NCBI RefSeq assembly: GCF_001267405.1 | Contig: NZ_CP012369.1 | Span: forward strand, 2,212,402 to 2,276,401 | Direction: 5' to 3' | DNA length: 64,000 nucleotides | DNA from: Moorella thermoacetica | GTDB taxonomy: Bacteria > Bacillota > DSM-521 > Neomoorellales > Neomoorellaceae | Part shown: positions 1,762 to 54,034 of the stretch, one piece after another | How positions within the stretch are numbered: position 1 is the stretch's first letter | Layout: every line of letters begins with the position of its first letter | Notes under the pieces: model-generated | What the model was told of the DNA's origin: nothing | The model's database searches: none | What the model saw: only the letters and a program-made list of their open reading frames with translations | Translations under genes and position numbers: made by a program

Positions 1762-1833
1762 GGTTATTATATACGATTTTACTAATATAATAAGTGCATT
1801 CTTCTCCATTTCATTTTCCTCCCTTTGCTTTAT

Positions 1834-2093
1834 TTAATCCCTCCATGAGCGCCATAGTTTCAGCAATCTCCCAATATCTCCCGCCAAGTCTAATAAAGTA
1901 ATTATCCGGGGGTCCTTGATACGGTAAATCACCCGTAAACCCTCTTTGGTGGCCTCGACGATGTCCTGCTAGCGCAGGACAGCGAGATGCTGGGAAATGT
2001 TGGGCTGATCCAGCTCCAGTTCAGCAATTAGCTCGCAAACGCAACGCTCGCCATGGCGCAAAAGATCTATAACCCGCACCCGGCCTGCCGACC
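1834..2093 (-). pseudogene. ArsR-family regulator remnant, 5' deleted and with in-frame TAG
   Basis: Read on the minus strand, the frame gives GRVRVIDLLRHGERCVCEL, then ELDQPNISQHLAVLR, a TAG at 1969-1971, then VEATKEGLRVIYRIKDPR and a TAA at 1834-1836. This is the helix-turn-helix and wing of an ArsR/SmtB regulator, with the CVC metal-site pattern. The N-terminus is missing. The frame runs directly into the 5'-truncated transporter remnant on the other strand, so one deletion probably removed both starts and the shared promoter. Confidence 0.75.
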
Positions 2094-2991
2094 ATTGCCA
2101 ACTATTTTAAAACTAATATCAATTCCGTCCAGTGGGTTACCTCCGTCTACCTGTTGACCATGTCCGCCCTGCTCTTGATCTTCGGTATCATGGCAGACGC
2201 TTACGGCCGCCGCCGTATTTATAACGCCGGTTACTTTGTCATCACCATTTTCACCCTCTTTTGCGCCTTTGCCACCAGCATCGGGATGCTCATCTTTTTC
2301 CGGGTGTTACAGGCTGTAGGCGGGTCGCGATAACAGCCTGTTTTTGATTTTTTACGAACGCCGCCGCGCCAATGCCATACTTGATTTCCAGCTCTTTAAC
2401 AACTGAACCTTTACCTCGTCGATCATAGCTGCCCTGGTATCTTTTATTACCATGTACTCGCCGACTGTTTTGATACCCTTTTTCTACCAGAAAGTGCTGG
2501 GCTTTACTCCCCAGAAGGCCGGTTTCTTAATGATGGCTTTCCTGGCGGCCATGGCCATTACCGCCTCTTTCAGCGGCTGGCTTTCCGATAAAATCGGTTA
2601 TGTACTCTTAACCACCAGCGGGCTGGTATTGAACGGCCTGGCCCTGGTGGCCCTGGCCAACATCAACCTGCAAACGCCCTTAACCTTGATAATCATTTAT
2701 ATCGCCGTTATGGGCACCTCCCTGGGGATGTTCCAATCCCCGAACAATAGCTGCGTTACGGGCAGCGTGCCTAAGAACAAACTTGGTGCCGCCACGGGTA
2801 TCAGCCAGTTAATCAAGAATTTAGGTATGGTCATCGGTATAACTTTTTCCGTAGCCATCTTCAGTTCGCGAATGGCCGGCATGCCCGTTGAATACAACCA
2901 GGCGTTTGTCAAAAGTATGGGTTTTGTCTATTACCTGGCAGCCGTTTTAAGTTTTGCCGGGGCCGTTATTTCCTCCCGGCGTAGTAAATAA
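2091..2991 (+). pseudogene. MFS (DHA2/EmrB-type) drug transporter, degraded
   Basis: The first frame encodes IANYFKTNINSVQWV and a MADAYGRRRIYNAGY segment, the start of a 14-helix MFS exporter, and ends at TAA 2331. The next segment, in another frame from 2332, reads ERRRANAILDFQLFNN, hits TGA at 2404, and then continues open to 2991 with several membrane helices. The N-terminus and the central part (about 100 residues) are missing. The 179-residue frame from 2452 is the C-terminal piece and not an independent transporter. It lies back to back with the arsR remnant, its likely former regulator. Confidence 0.8.
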
Positions 2992-3014: not shown

Positions 3015-3164
3015 ATGACGCAACAGGAAAATTGGTACCTGCCCTACATGGATAAAAAAGTAAAGGGCATTGAAGTGGTGGAACGCCCGGCACCGGTGGC
3101 TGTTTTTTACTGTGCCGGGGCCTCAAATGTGGGCCAGAATACGGTGTTGGGCAGTTCTACCTAA
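3015..3164 (+). pseudogene. DGC-domain N-terminal fragment
   Basis: An ATG with a fair ribosome site (AAGGTAGG) starts a 49-codon frame. It contains VAVFYCAGASNVGQ, the Cys-Ser/Ala-Gly-Ala-Ser pattern of DGC putative zinc-binding proteins, and stops at 3162-3164 long before a full domain. Downstream to about 3290 there are only short open stretches I cannot assign. It is probably a truncated relic, and a functional short protein cannot be excluded. Confidence 0.45.
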
Positions 3165-3290: not shown

Positions 3291-3461
3291 CTACCTTTCT
3301 GGTTGCATCAGTACCCCCGCCAGGCAAGGAATCTTTTTGGGTATCTTGGGAGCGATTTTCTGTAATACAAATTCCAGCGCCTCTCCGGCATCTTTATCCA
3401 GGCAGATGCGTTGCAGCATTAGCTGCTCTTCCTCATTGAGGGCAATAAGAACTTTACCCAT
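3291..3461 (-). CDS. Hypothetical small protein, 56 residues
   Basis: The start was set at ATG 3461 because GGAG lies 9 bases upstream. The longer frame up to 3548 has no ribosome site. The product is soluble: an acidic first half (NEEEQLMLQRICLDKDAGEALEFVLQ) and a basic Pro-rich tail (KIAPKIPKKIP). I do not recognise a family. It lies divergent to the PadR-DUF2703 gene, with both 5' ends facing each other. Confidence 0.5.
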   Translation of the reverse strand: MGKVLIALNEEEQLMLQRICLDKDAGEALEFVLQKIAPKIPKKIPCLAGVLMQPER

Positions 3462-3561
3462 AATACCCACTCCTTTGCTTAAAAATTGGCTTATTTTTAT
3501 TTTCCTATAAATACGGTTTAACAACAACATTATAGCTCGCTTACTCACCTGGATAAATAAC

Positions 3562-3590
3562 TTGATCCCATCAGCCGGGTACCATATAAT
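3562..3590 (+). promoter_or_regulatory. Promoter of padR-DUF2703 gene
   Basis: TTGATC (3562-3567) and TATAAT (3585-3590) are spaced by 17 bases. A start near 3597 would place the palindrome at 3609-3624 in the 5' leader. Confidence 0.75.
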
Positions 3591-3608
3591 ACAAGCAGAG
3601 GCATTGCC

Positions 3609-3624
3609 CCTCTATGTATAGAGG
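3609..3624. promoter_or_regulatory. Perfect 16-bp palindrome, candidate operator
   Basis: CCTCTATGTATAGAGG sits between the likely transcription start and the GTG at 3634. PadR dimers bind palindromes at their own promoters, so autoregulation is a reasonable inference. Confidence 0.5.
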
Positions 3625-3633
3625 CTAAAGGTA

Positions 3634-4761
3634 GTGGCAAAAATGAATTATACTGATCGCGAGTACTGGAACGGTATCATCAAGATGTGCCTCTCGAAGT
3701 TTTTCATCCTGCGGGTTCTCTACACCCAGCCCATGCACGGCTACGAGATAGCCCGCACCGTAGCCCAGGTCACCAGGGGGTGCTGCACGCCCACTGAAGG
3801 GACGATTTACCCGGTACTCAGGGAGTTCGAGGAGGGCGGCTATGTCACTTCTTCCCTTGAGATAGCCGGGGGCCGGGAGCGCAAAGTCTATACCCTTACG
3901 CCAAAAGGGCAGGAGGCCTTCCGCGTGGCTGTAGAGGCCTGGAAGGAGGTTACCGGCTACATTTTAGAGGCGGTAAAGTTAGAGGATTATGCAAGCACAA
4001 GGAGGCGCTGTATTATGGCAGGAGCGAAAGGTATACTTTCCAACTTTTCTGGCCTGCGGGAAGGCAACTGCTATTCCGTTCGCAACGAGGAAATCCCCAT
4101 AGGACAATGCCGTACCGCCGCTAGCAGTTGTAGCTGCGGGAGTTCTTTACCGGGCAGTTTCGACAAAGAAGAGGGGGGAGAAATAGGGATATCGCCCGAT
4201 ACCCAGGCGTCCCAGCGTTCCCTCGACATCGAGTTTCTCTACCTGGACCTTGATTCCTGCACCAGGTGCGGTGGAACGGCCCGCAACCTGGAAGAGGCCC
4301 TCAACGAAGTGGCAGGGGTCTTACAGGCTACCGGGATCCAGGTCAACCTGCACAAGATCCACGTCCAGTCGGAAGAACAGGCCCTGGCCCTGGGATTTGT
4401 CAGTTCGCCTACCATCCGCATCAACGGGCGGGACATCCAGCTCGACGTCAGGGAAAGCCTCTGCGAATCCTGCGGCGAGATTTGCGGCGAGGATGTGGAC
4501 TGCCGCGTCTGGGTGTACCAGGGGAAGGAATATACCGAAGCTCCCAAGGGTATGATTATTGAGGCCATCCTGAAGCACGTTTACGGGGGTGGAAATGAAA
4601 GCCCGGCAGAAAGGGAAACACTGCAGGAGCTGCCCGATAATTTAAAGCGCTTCTTTGCGGCCAGGCGTAAGAAAGAAGAAGGTGGAGCCGGCCGCAAGCC
4701 CGCGCCGGAACCCCAAGACAGTTGCTGCGGCATTTCTCCCTTATCTAAATGCTGCAAGTAA
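3634..4761 (+). CDS. PadR-family regulator fused to DUF2703
   Basis: The protein has 375 residues. Residues 15-115 are a PadR winged helix (LSKFFILRVLYTQPMHGYEI, then TPTEGTIYPVLREFEEGGYV and ERKVYTLTPKGQEAF). Residues 125-185 are a linker with several Cys (CSCGSS). Residues 190-320 match DUF2703: SCTRCGGTARNLEEAL, SSPTIRINGRDIQ, CESCGEICGEDVDCRVW. The C-terminus ends SCCGISPLSKCCK. About 20 Cys suggest metal or thiol sensing built into the regulator. DUF2703 proteins are often found in metal or arsenic resistance neighbourhoods, and the nearby arsR/transporter relics fit that. Start choice is GTG 3634 or ATG 3643. A terminator hairpin follows. The ligand is unknown. Confidence 0.85.
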   Translation: MAKMNYTDREYWNGIIKMCLSKFFILRVLYTQPMHGYEIARTVAQVTRGCCTPTEGTIYPVLREFEEGGYVTSSLEIAGGRERKVYTLTPKGQEAFRVAVEAWKEVTGYILEAVKLEDYASTRRRCIMAGAKGILSNFSGLREGNCYSVRNEEIPIGQCRTAASSCSCGSSLPGSFDKEEGGEIGISPDTQASQRSLDIEFLYLDLDSCTRCGGTARNLEEALNEVAGVLQATGIQVNLHKIHVQSEEQALALGFVSSPTIRINGRDIQLDVRESLCESCGEICGEDVDCRVWVYQGKEYTEAPKGMIIEAILKHVYGGGNESPAERETLQELPDNLKRFFAARRKKEEGGAGRKPAPEPQDSCCGISPLSKCCK

Positions 4762-4773
4762 CGCATCTAAGTG

Positions 4774-4825
4774 GCTGCATGGCAGGGCCACGGGCAACAT
4801 TCAGCCCGTGGTCCTGCCATGCAGC
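4774..4825 (+). terminator. Long hairpin after padR-DUF2703
   Basis: A near-perfect stem of about 22 bp (GCTGCATGGCAGG paired with CCTGCCATGCAGC, extended by CCACGGGC/GCCCGTGG) has an 8-base loop and is followed by an AT-rich tract. It probably terminates the gene before it. The stem is longer than a usual terminator. Confidence 0.6.
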
Positions 4826-9768: not shown

Positions 9769-10641
9769 CTATAATATGGGTATACATTTCACTTCATTAT
9801 TTGCATAAAAATACACTTCAGCCGGCGTCTTATATTCCAGTGATTGGTGGATGCGGCGGTAGTTGTAGAACTCCAGGTAACGGGCAATTCCTCTTCTCGC
9901 TTCCCTGGGGCTGCTATACTCGTTCAAGTAAACTTCTTCATATTTTAGGCTACGCCAGAGACGTTCAGTAAAGATGTTGTCGGTTGCTCTGCCCTTGCCG
10001 TCCATGCTGATCTTGATACCGGCGCTCTGGAGTAAATCGATATACTCCGGACTGGTGAATTGGGACCCCTGGTCGCTGTTCATTATCTCCGGCCTGGCCC
10101 GGGCCAGGGCTTCTTCTACGGCTTGAAGCACGAAGGTCGTCGCTAGATTCTGGTCCAGGGCCCATCCTACCACAAAGCGCGAGTACCAGTCTATAATGGC
10201 TACCAGGTACATCCACCCCCGGACCAGTCGGATGTAAGTGATGTCAATGCCCCAAACCTGGTTGGGCCGGGTGATATCAAGGTTGCGCAGCAGGTAGGGG
10301 TAAATGCGGTGTTCCTGGTTGCGCCTGCTTAAGTTGGGTCCCGGGTAGATGGCTATAAGGCCCATTTCCCGCATGTGACGCTGGACGGCTTTACGGTTGA
10401 CCAAAAATCCCTCCTTCCGCAGCTGGGCGGTGATGCGCCTGGAACCGTAAAAGGGGAAGGCGGTGTATATTTCGTCGATACGGTGTTTTACCGCTATTTC
10501 TTCTGGTGAAGGGGGTACCGGCTGGTAGTAGAGGCTGGAGCGATTTAAGCTTAGTAGTTCCGCCTGTTTCTTAATGGACAGCTCAGGATGGCCCCATTCC
10601 ACCAGGGAAATACGTTCGTCTCGGTTAAGCTCAGAGGCCAC
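9769..10641 (-). CDS. IS3-family transposase OrfB (DDE integrase)
   Basis: This frame has 290 residues. The HTH_21-like start (KQAELLSLNRSSLYY) is followed by the rve integrase core: WGIDITYIRL (first Asp), IMNSDQGSQFTSPEY (second Asp) and FTERLWRSLKYEEVYLNEY (Glu). The end YNYRRIHQSLEYKTPAEVY is typical. It overlaps orfA by 11 bases, with a run of eight A at the junction, so it is probably made as an OrfAB fusion by -1 frameshifting. It appears intact. Confidence 0.92.
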   Translation of the reverse strand: MASELNRDERISLVEWGHPELSIKKQAELLSLNRSSLYYQPVPPSPEEIAVKHRIDEIYTAFPFYGSRRITAQLRKEGFLVNRKAVQRHMREMGLIAIYPGPNLSRRNQEHRIYPYLLRNLDITRPNQVWGIDITYIRLVRGWMYLVAIIDWYSRFVVGWALDQNLATTFVLQAVEEALARARPEIMNSDQGSQFTSPEYIDLLQSAGIKISMDGKGRATDNIFTERLWRSLKYEEVYLNEYSSPREARRGIARYLEFYNYRRIHQSLEYKTPAEVYFYANNEVKCIPIL

Positions 10642-10921
10642 TCTTTTTTTTAAGCCAGGTTAGTTCGGTAGTTAACCGGCCAACCTCGGCATAAAGGTCC
10701 TGGATTTGTTTTTCGTACTGAGCTTTTATATTTTCAAGGTTTTTTTGCTCATCGGTGAAGAAGGATGGTAACTTTTCTATCACCATATTTCTCCAGCGGT
10801 TAAGGATAGATGGATGAATACCGTATTCAGAGGATAACTCAGAAATTGACTTTTCTTCTTTAAGAATTTCCAGCACAACTTTGGCCTTAAAATCCGTTGG
10901 ATATTTTTTCCGTACACTCAT
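10631..10921 (-). CDS. IS3-family transposase OrfA (helix-turn-helix)
   Basis: This frame has 96 residues. It has an HTH_Tnp_1 region (YPTDFKAKVVLEILKEEKSI, then ELSSEYGIHPSILNRWRN) and a leucine-zipper-like tail (IQDLYAEVGRLTTELTWLKKK). The A8 run at its end is a likely slippery site for fusion with OrfB. Confidence 0.9.
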   Translation of the reverse strand: MSVRKKYPTDFKAKVVLEILKEEKSISELSSEYGIHPSILNRWRNMVIEKLPSFFTDEQKNLENIKAQYEKQIQDLYAEVGRLTTELTWLKKKSGL

Positions 10922-12782
10922 TTGACGCTTAGGACCCCCTGTTTTTGTGTCTAGTTTTCTGGGTCGTGCGGCGGAGCAATGCCGCGGGATATAGTGGGTG
11001 GAAAGCCCACCTGGTAAGGTCTAGCCAACCGCCAGTAGCCAGCCTTGGAGCCTGTAGGGTAACCGGCAGGTTTAAGCGTAGGTAGGCAAGGCAGCGGGCC
11101 GAAAGCCATAGCGCTGAAGGGATTGAGCCTCGAAATAAAATTTAGTTGGGAGGGCCGATGCTCTGACCCAAGCAGAAGGCAACATGGCGGTAATCATTAA
11201 AGGCGAGACTACCGCCATCTCCTCGGGGTCGCAGACCTCGGCACGCTGGACATCGTTATCCCACGGTAACTCAGGAGACCCTGCCTCCTCTTCCGGTTTC
11301 AGGAAGTATGGCCGACAAGCGATACAAAGTGAGGAGGCCAAACAGGAGGCAGGGAGTCGGATTACGGCGTAGTACCAAGGAAACCGGGTAACGCCGGCGG
11401 AGGAAAGGCCGTAACAAGGAATCGCTCTTGTAAGGGGAACAATTCCCACACCCAGAGGTGGAACCGGATTGACAACGAAACTTGCAAGAATAGCGGAAGT
11501 TGCCCGAACGCGACCGAAGGAACGCTTTACCTCCCTCATGCACCTAATAGATGCGGATATGCTAAGGATATGCCATGTTGAGCTCAAGGCCAATAGGGCT
11601 ACCGGCATAGATGGCATTACCAAGGAGCAATATGGCGACAACCTGGAAGCTAACATTCAAAGCCTCCTAGAACGCCTCAAACGCAAAGCTTACCGGCCCC
11701 AACCAGTTAGGCGAGTCTATATTCCCAAACCGGGCTCTGACAAGAAGCGCCCCCTGGGGATACCAGCCTACGAAGATAAAATAGTCCAACTGGCTGCCAG
11801 TAAGATCCTCAATGCCATCTACGAAGCGGAATTCCTGGATATGTCCTTCGGCTTTCGCCCCCAACGCGGCTGCCACGATGCCCTAAAGTTATTAAACTAC
11901 CTCATCGTCGCCAGGAAGGTCAACTATATAGTCGATGCTGATATCAAAGGCTTCTTCGACCATGTAAACCACGACTGGCTGATGAAATTCTTGGGGCATC
12001 GCATAGCCGACCCCAACTTTCTTCGGTTTATCCGTCGATTTCTCAAGGCGGGCATTATGGAGAACGGGGAACTAAGGGACGCAACCGAAGGGACACCCCA
12101 GGGCGGCATAGTATCGCCTATCCTGGCCAACATCTATCTGCACTATGTCCTTGACCTGTGGTTCGAAAAAGCGGTGCGCAAACACTGCCGGGGAGAAGCC
12201 TATATGGTGCGCTATGCCGATGACTTCATCTGCTGTTTTCAATACAAACATGAGGCCGAGGCATTTTACCGGGCACTGAAAGCAAGGCTGGCCAAATTTT
12301 CCCTATCCGTAGCCGAAGAAAAGACCAAGATAATTCCCTTTGGCCGCTTCGCTACCCAATGGTGCAAACGGATGGGGCAAAATAAGCCAGATACCTTTGA
12401 TTTCCTGGGCTTTACCCATTATTGCAGCACCAGCCATCAGGGCAAGTTCAGGGTCAAGAGACGCACCAGCCGGAAGAAGTTCCGGCAGAGCGTGCAGAGA
12501 ATGAAGGAATGGATAAAAGGGAACCGCATGATGCCAGCGAAAGTGCTCATGGCCCTTCTCAAAAGGAAACTCGAAGGTTATTACCACTATTATGGGATAA
12601 CCGATAACAGCAAGCGCATCCTGGCATTCCACTACATTGCCAGGTGTATGCTCTTCAAGTGGCTAAATCGTAGGAGCCAGAGGGTTAGTGTAAAATTACA
12701 GTAGGTAGGAGGAAAAAGGGGTAAAAAAGAGAAAAGAGACCTCACAGGAAGAAAACCACCGTAAAAGGAGTGAGGTCTCTTA

Positions 12783-53809: not shown

Positions 53810-54034
53810 ATGTCCCTTAACGGCCTCATTCGCCAAAGCCTGGAAATGGTAGAAGAGCTGGTAGCCATGCCCTTCCTGGTGGCCCAGAAAATATGGCCGG
53901 AGGATAGTACCTCCACCACCGATCAGGTTATCAACCGGGCCGCAGGGCTGAGTGCCGGTCTTGCCACCATGCCGTTCAAGGCCATTCGCGAAATCTTTGA
54001 AGACGACCGGCAGCAATCGCCATCGTCTTCTTAG
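53810..54034 (+). CDS. Hypothetical 74-residue protein
   Basis: The start has AAGAAGGTG upstream. The sequence is moderately amphipathic (MSLNGLIRQSLEMVEELVAM, PFLVAQKIWPED, LATMPFKAIREIFEDD). It has no membrane helix or Cys. The family is unknown to me. A terminator hairpin follows. Confidence 0.65.
   Translation: MSLNGLIRQSLEMVEELVAMPFLVAQKIWPEDSTSTTDQVINRAAGLSAGLATMPFKAIREIFEDDRQQSPSSS

Follow-up and report, generated by a model that had tools for sequence, protein, structure and literature searches.

A padR-DUF2703 fusion that is probably a deletion scar, and a candidate arsenical sensor in the cysteine-pair PadR subfamily

In the window, i.e., the whole 64-kb stretch of DNA that was analyzed, one uninterrupted frame joins a PadR-type regulator to a DUF2703 domain (Table 1). 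The two domains had been assigned to a single chain by an initial annotation of this DNA, and both assignments were confirmed by Pfam profile matches above the curated cut-offs, with PF03551 for the PadR part (E 5.3e-20; 71.6 bits for a cut-off of 27) and PF10865 for the DUF2703 part (E 1.1e-37; 129.2 bits for a cut-off of 23.6). The paired CxxC motifs were likewise found, at C206/C209 and C274/C277 in the numbering of the 372-residue protein. We prefer the ATG at position 3643 as the start codon because it agrees with the MDYT start of the relatives, a GTG at 3634 being a less likely alternative. No ArsR/SmtB-type profile of Pfam or NCBIfam matched the fused protein at E values up to 1, and its score against the NCBIfam DF family (seleno)protein profile NF049942, 50.8 bits, is below the cut-off of 70.

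Table 1. Features of the padR-DUF2703 locus and its upstream flank (positions in the window)
Feature	Position	Strand	Remark
arsR remnant	1830..2081	-	In-frame stop, N terminus lost
MFS efflux gene remnant	2082..2988	+	Frame disrupted; internally deleted in comparison with G009
DGC-type gene remnant	3015..3163	+	Matches G008 DNA holding a DGC gene
Promoter	3562..3590	+	-35 TTGATC, 17-nt spacer, -10 TATAAT; near-consensus
Proposed PadR operator, AGGCATTGCCCCTCTATGTAT	3599..3619	+	21-bp imperfect inverted repeat; matrix rank 1 in 64 kb
16-mer palindrome of the initial annotation	3609..3624	.	Overlaps the right half of the operator at 3599-3619
Fused padR-DUF2703 ORF	3643..4761	+	372 aa; single open frame
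PadR part of the fused ORF	3643..3987	+	
Codons of the vicinal pair C47-C48	3781..3786	+	Turn before the recognition helix
Deletion junction	3986..4000	+	Lacks ~1.1 kb found in G003/G008/G010 (padR stop + ArsP_1 permease gene)
Ancestral Shine-Dalgarno sequence of DUF2703	3999..4005	+	AAGGAGG, retained
Ancestral DUF2703 gene	4015..4761	+	Own in-frame ATG at 4015; 248 aa
DUF2703 domain	4222..4569	+	Thioredoxin-like
C-terminal CC-x7-CC tail	4723..4755	+	C361-C362 and C370-C371
Terminator-like hairpin	4776..4823	+	Strong

The organization of the locus is different in the relatives G003, G008 and G010, in which padR, an ArsP_1 permease gene and the DUF2703 gene are three separate genes. There, padR ends at a stop codon of its own and is followed by the permease gene, whose product has 298 residues (PF03773, 196.6 bits for G003), and then by a DUF2703 gene with its own start. 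In the alignment to these relatives, padR is matched up to position 3986 and DUF2703 from approximately position 4000, with about 1.1 kb absent between them. The permease is likewise missing from G004 and G009, where padR and DUF2703 are still separate ORFs, and just a PadR fragment is left in G016. As the genes are separate in the relatives with the permease between them, and as the Shine-Dalgarno sequence and ATG of DUF2703 are retained in the window, the fusion appears to be a deletion scar left by ordinary genome decay and not a designed sensor chain. An in-frame deletion of approximately 1.1 kb in an ancestral padR-permease-DUF2703 operon would have taken the permease gene and the padR stop codon while the translation signals of DUF2703 survived. 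Two products might be made from such a locus, the 372-residue fusion and the 248-residue DUF2703 protein.

The initial annotation had described the protein as a self-contained switch, with metal sensing by the Cys-rich DUF2703 domain and PadR as the effector. The stop-free frame through both domains is what such a one-chain switch calls for, the structure model shows a PadR helix (residues 87 to 133) unbroken across the junction, and dN/dS is low in the PadR part. Nevertheless, the gene order of the relatives, the start codon that DUF2703 still possesses, and the finding that the window's own genome was the only one of 199 searched with a full-length match to the fused ORF make this explanation very unlikely. 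The linker also argues against it, since residues 136 to 189 are disordered in the model and two linker Cys have been lost. The sensor probably lies within PadR itself, at C47-C48. If this apparent two-domain sensor protein is indeed a deletion scar, it represents a clear caution for the mining of domain architectures.

In the promoter upstream of the fused frame, the -35 box has diverged from the TTGACA found in most relatives. The leader had been reported to contain a perfect 16-bp palindrome. This sequence, CCTCTATGTATAGAGG, is present, but seven of its eight pairs match and the central GT is unpaired. A search for it elsewhere in the 2.53-Mb genome, as had been suggested, found it to be unique at zero mismatches, with the next site at two mismatches. 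Only five or six of the eight pairs are kept in seven same-family relatives, and the overlapping 21-bp site scores 11.6 to 18.2 bits in them; the 16-mer was therefore rejected as the main operator. Neither site is found in the more distant G018.

The 21-bp site is described by a symmetric matrix of 21 positions with the consensus ATACCTTGATCATCAAGGTAT, which was trained only on proteobacterial padR promoters (65 distinct promoters from 72 loci, 63 of them with a site above 6 bits). When the window was scanned with this matrix, the site upstream of padR came first with 17.2 bits, the runner-up having 8.4. The first regular-expression seed of the operator search was drawn up with all loci already in view, and an unseeded repeat was run as well. 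This seed-free symmetric search yielded a nearly identical motif, with an information of 21.7 compared with 8 to 9 in shuffles, at the same place in the window. A non-symmetric motif search ranked position 53961 of the window first and 3602 second. Nine of 20 ordinary padR promoters also scored at least 12 bits, and no site at that level was found in 2000 shuffles of the control promoters or in 536 other stretches of the control loci. The 21-bp site is therefore a general PadR-type operator, not special to the arsenic-linked subfamily described below. In that subfamily, it is absent from the Firmicutes members L038, L058, L059, L061 and L173, from L087, and from the proteobacterial L102 and L125. 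A search for a regulon identified 12 one-mismatch places in the genome, relative to 4 for a control pattern, and no strong operator site was detected in the 28 kb upstream of the locus. Judged by sequence, the presence of a predicted PadR operator at the gene's own promoter supports the suggestion that the regulator controls itself through a leader site. The PadR half would be an autorepressor that binds this operator, which lies just 3′ of the -10 box.

The flank of the locus is also affected by decay. The arsR and efflux genes had been noted as broken and as suggestive of an older resistance locus; the frame defects in Table 1 bear out the former, with a DGC-type gene remnant following them, and the decay of an older arsenic locus is supported. 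An ACR3 gene is retained about 9 kb upstream. A separate ArsP_1 gene of this genome, C1:2195475, which lies after an arsR-like gene, was considered as the lost permease and rejected, its product being only 34% identical to it. On the window's own branch, the N-terminal arm of DUF2703 has accumulated 3 silent and 11 replacing codon changes, compared with 4 and 5 in its core and tail. PadR has 6 of each, and four of its replacing changes are at residues 109 to 115, beside the junction. These counts of replacing codons suggest that the arm and the junction are drifting, with the key residues of both domains kept, and the arm itself may be decaying.

Such observations raise the question of whether decay extends to the entire stretch, with padR-DUF2703 persisting as a pseudogene-like relic, functionless now. 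This would fit with the broken arsR, MFS and DGC neighbors, the loss of the permease, the altered -35 box and the surplus of replacing changes in the arm. However, every invariant residue of PadR and DUF2703 is kept, as is the operator. Relative to the relatives, dN/dS is 0.09 to 0.16 for PadR and 0.2 to 0.36 for DUF2703, values that mostly reflect the time before the fusion. We thus regard a functionless relic as improbable.

The PadR part belongs to a subfamily whose members scored at least 110 bits in a search of the phylum, other PadRs having at most 65. All 19 subfamily rows of an alignment, including that of the window's protein, carry the vicinal pair C47-C48; two ordinary PadRs lack it. 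A scan of genome contigs, using patterns that did not require the pair, found it in 80 of 80 loci. These rank as the top 80 among 156 relatives, include close kin and come mostly from Proteobacteria. The pair is absent from all 20 ordinary PadRs used as controls, i.e., the first 20 of the phylum-search list, all from the window's phylum. C16 was considered as a third conserved sensor Cys and rejected, as just 9 of the 21 aligned PadRs have it. The subfamily occurs in Bacillota, Chloroflexota and Pseudomonadota and also on plasmids (four PLSDB records), one of which is conjugative and has a permease gene adjoining padR.

We counted as arsenic-type genes those for ArsK, ACR3, ArsP_1, ArsC, ArsH, ArsM, ArsA and DUF2703 within a radius of 6 kb. 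At least one is present in 65 of the 80 cysteine-pair loci, and none of the 20 loci of ordinary PadRs has any (p 6e-12 by Fisher's test), so that the metal or metalloid link initially proposed is supported as a link to arsenic. ArsK was the most frequent (25 loci), followed by ACR3 (22), ArsP_1 (15), ArsC (14), ArsH and ArsM (12 each), ArsA (7) and DUF2703 (3). ArsK was counted only at E < 1e-40, which leaves out ArsK-like MFS genes 3′ of padR in L093 and L098. Neighbors exceeding the curated cut-offs include ArsK, ArsH, ACR3, ArsA, ArsM and ArsC. ArsP_1 is not arsenic-specific, and the best NCBIfam matches of these permeases, both below the cut-off, are SaoE and a Cu/Zn exporter. With ArsP_1 and DUF2703 left out, 62 loci still have an arsenic-type gene. 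In a comparison limited to Firmicutes, the proportions are 19/21 and 0/20, the misses being one of the G272 copies and G009, which has only DUF2703; an arsenic-specific gene is present in 11 of these 21 members. On a tree whose long branches leave the deepest joins unsure, three label changes are needed, a number as low as which was reached in 0 of 500 shuffles. Three single-Cys paralogues of G318 (L175, L176 and L177) are nested in the subfamily clade and lack both the operator and any arsenic gene within 6 kb. They sit among other genes, and their ligand may have changed.

A flavoprotein of the pyridine-nucleotide-disulfide oxidoreductase type is encoded in 48 of the 80 loci, mostly directly 3′ of padR. 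Together with an operator type common to ordinary PadRs, this could point to an ordinary PadR that answers an organic or redox signal, with the Cys pair as a thiol-redox switch and the arsenic context coming from flavoprotein/thioredoxin-like operons. This reading is improbable, in view of the ArsK, ACR3, ArsC, ArsH, ArsM or ArsA genes in 62 of the 80 loci and of the flavoprotein itself, which is weakly ArsO-like (below the cut-off). The copy near the cysteine-pair padR gene of L199 (5434-6885) has Cys pairs near both ends. This flavoprotein (the L199 copy and those in 48 of the 80 loci L072 to L151) may be an undescribed arsenic enzyme.

The model of the PadR part (pLDDT about 80 to 98) has a winged-helix fold with a putative C-terminal dimer helix, and LmrR and other PadRs are among the Foldseek matches listed (best E 5.1e-6). 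The C47-C48 pair is located between helices 33 to 43 and 52 to 64, in the turn that leads into the recognition helix. We propose that, in this arsenic-linked PadR, the sensor is the cysteine pair that sits where the recognition helix begins. The ligand would be a trivalent arsenical, with methylarsenite and arsenite as the likeliest candidates; by bridging both thiolates, it would distort the DNA-reading head and cause release of the operator. Alternative ligands could be Sb(III), Hg(II) or Cd(II), and the pair might also be oxidized to a disulfide. With the paired permease gone, the switch would now govern mainly itself and DUF2703 in this genome. We assign a probability of roughly 0.6 to the joint reading of a scar origin, a PadR autorepressor, an arsenical sensor at C47-C48 and a thioredoxin-fold helper role for DUF2703. 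The chances appear evenly balanced for the broader proposal that this widespread subfamily forms a second class of repressors that respond to arsenicals, probably to methylarsenite, independently of ArsR; a ligand bound by the vicinal dithiol before the recognition helix would then act directly on the DNA-reading head.

If true, a switch for arsenicals built on PadR would represent a regulator class additional to the ArsR-type ars repressors of the papers cited here. It could explain the control of the adjoining ArsP, ArsM, ArsH and ArsK genes and would provide a new part for arsenic biosensors. No arsenic-responsive PadR was found in the accessible text of the open-access literature, to which the search was confined and which included PMC12191737, PMC2936356 and PMC4435449, subscription papers being outside its scope. 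The small PadRs LmrR (PDB 3f8f) and Rv3488 share with the window's protein the PF03551 domain, the winged-helix fold and the PadR-type operator, but the vicinal Cys pair in the helix-turn-helix turn and the arsenic gene neighborhood distinguish the subfamily from them. ChrI, whose gene adjoins chrA, is similarly a PadR protein that regulates a transporter gene for a toxic oxyanion; however, it is induced by chromate rather than arsenic, and the sections available of PMC2936356 propose basic residues and no Cys pair. Cys101-102 of an ArsR repressor is described in the accessible part of PMC6514093 as its signature for methylarsenite, and ArsP, ArsH and ArsM are tied there to methylarsenite. That repressor has a vicinal Cys pair in common with the window's PadR but belongs to the ArsR/SmtB family.

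The DUF2703 half would be a thioredoxin-fold dithiol protein acting as a downstream arsenic reductant or carrier. Its invariant residues include the C206/C209 pair, S255-P256 and C274/C277. The model (147 residues, five sequences, mean pLDDT 69.5) is weakly thioredoxin-like, with a best Foldseek E of 2e-3 and a best Z of 7.7 over 85 aligned residues at 3.3 Å. DUF2703 is placed in the thioredoxin-like clan in the part available of PMC3091736, from which ArsD, an arsenic metallochaperone, also has a thioredoxin-like fold. A DUF2703 protein with a CxxC motif in the ars cluster of Rhodococcus BCP1 has the same Pfam domain and is As(V)-induced (PMC6514093, accessible part), and in the sections at hand the DUF2703 proteins of known ars clusters differ from ours in being neither joined to nor controlled by a PadR. 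ArsD was not among the structural matches listed for the DUF2703 model and differs in that the fused protein has no Pfam ArsD match at E values up to 1. The C-terminal tail of the window's DUF2703 resembles what we take to be the CC..CC tail of ArsD. In G127, DUF2703 is fused to an ArsM-type methyltransferase, and a single 550-aa ORF at L065:4655-6304 comprises a 4Fe-4S domain, DUF2703 and an ArsM-type methyltransferase. No DUF2703 match was found in phages and two loci were found in viral contigs; at the end of a virus-labeled contig (L196, IMGVR_UViG_3300029823_000342), DUF2703 lies between ArsR and ACR3.

Elsewhere in the window, the segments 9769-10921 (-) and 11469-12704 (+) presumably correspond to an IS3-type transposase pair and a reverse transcriptase. 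Between the gene remnants and the promoter, positions 3291-3548 (-) hold a conserved ORF (85 aa) that matched neither Pfam nor NCBIfam profiles and the DNA of which is kept near padR in G003, G004 and G010 and partly in G017.
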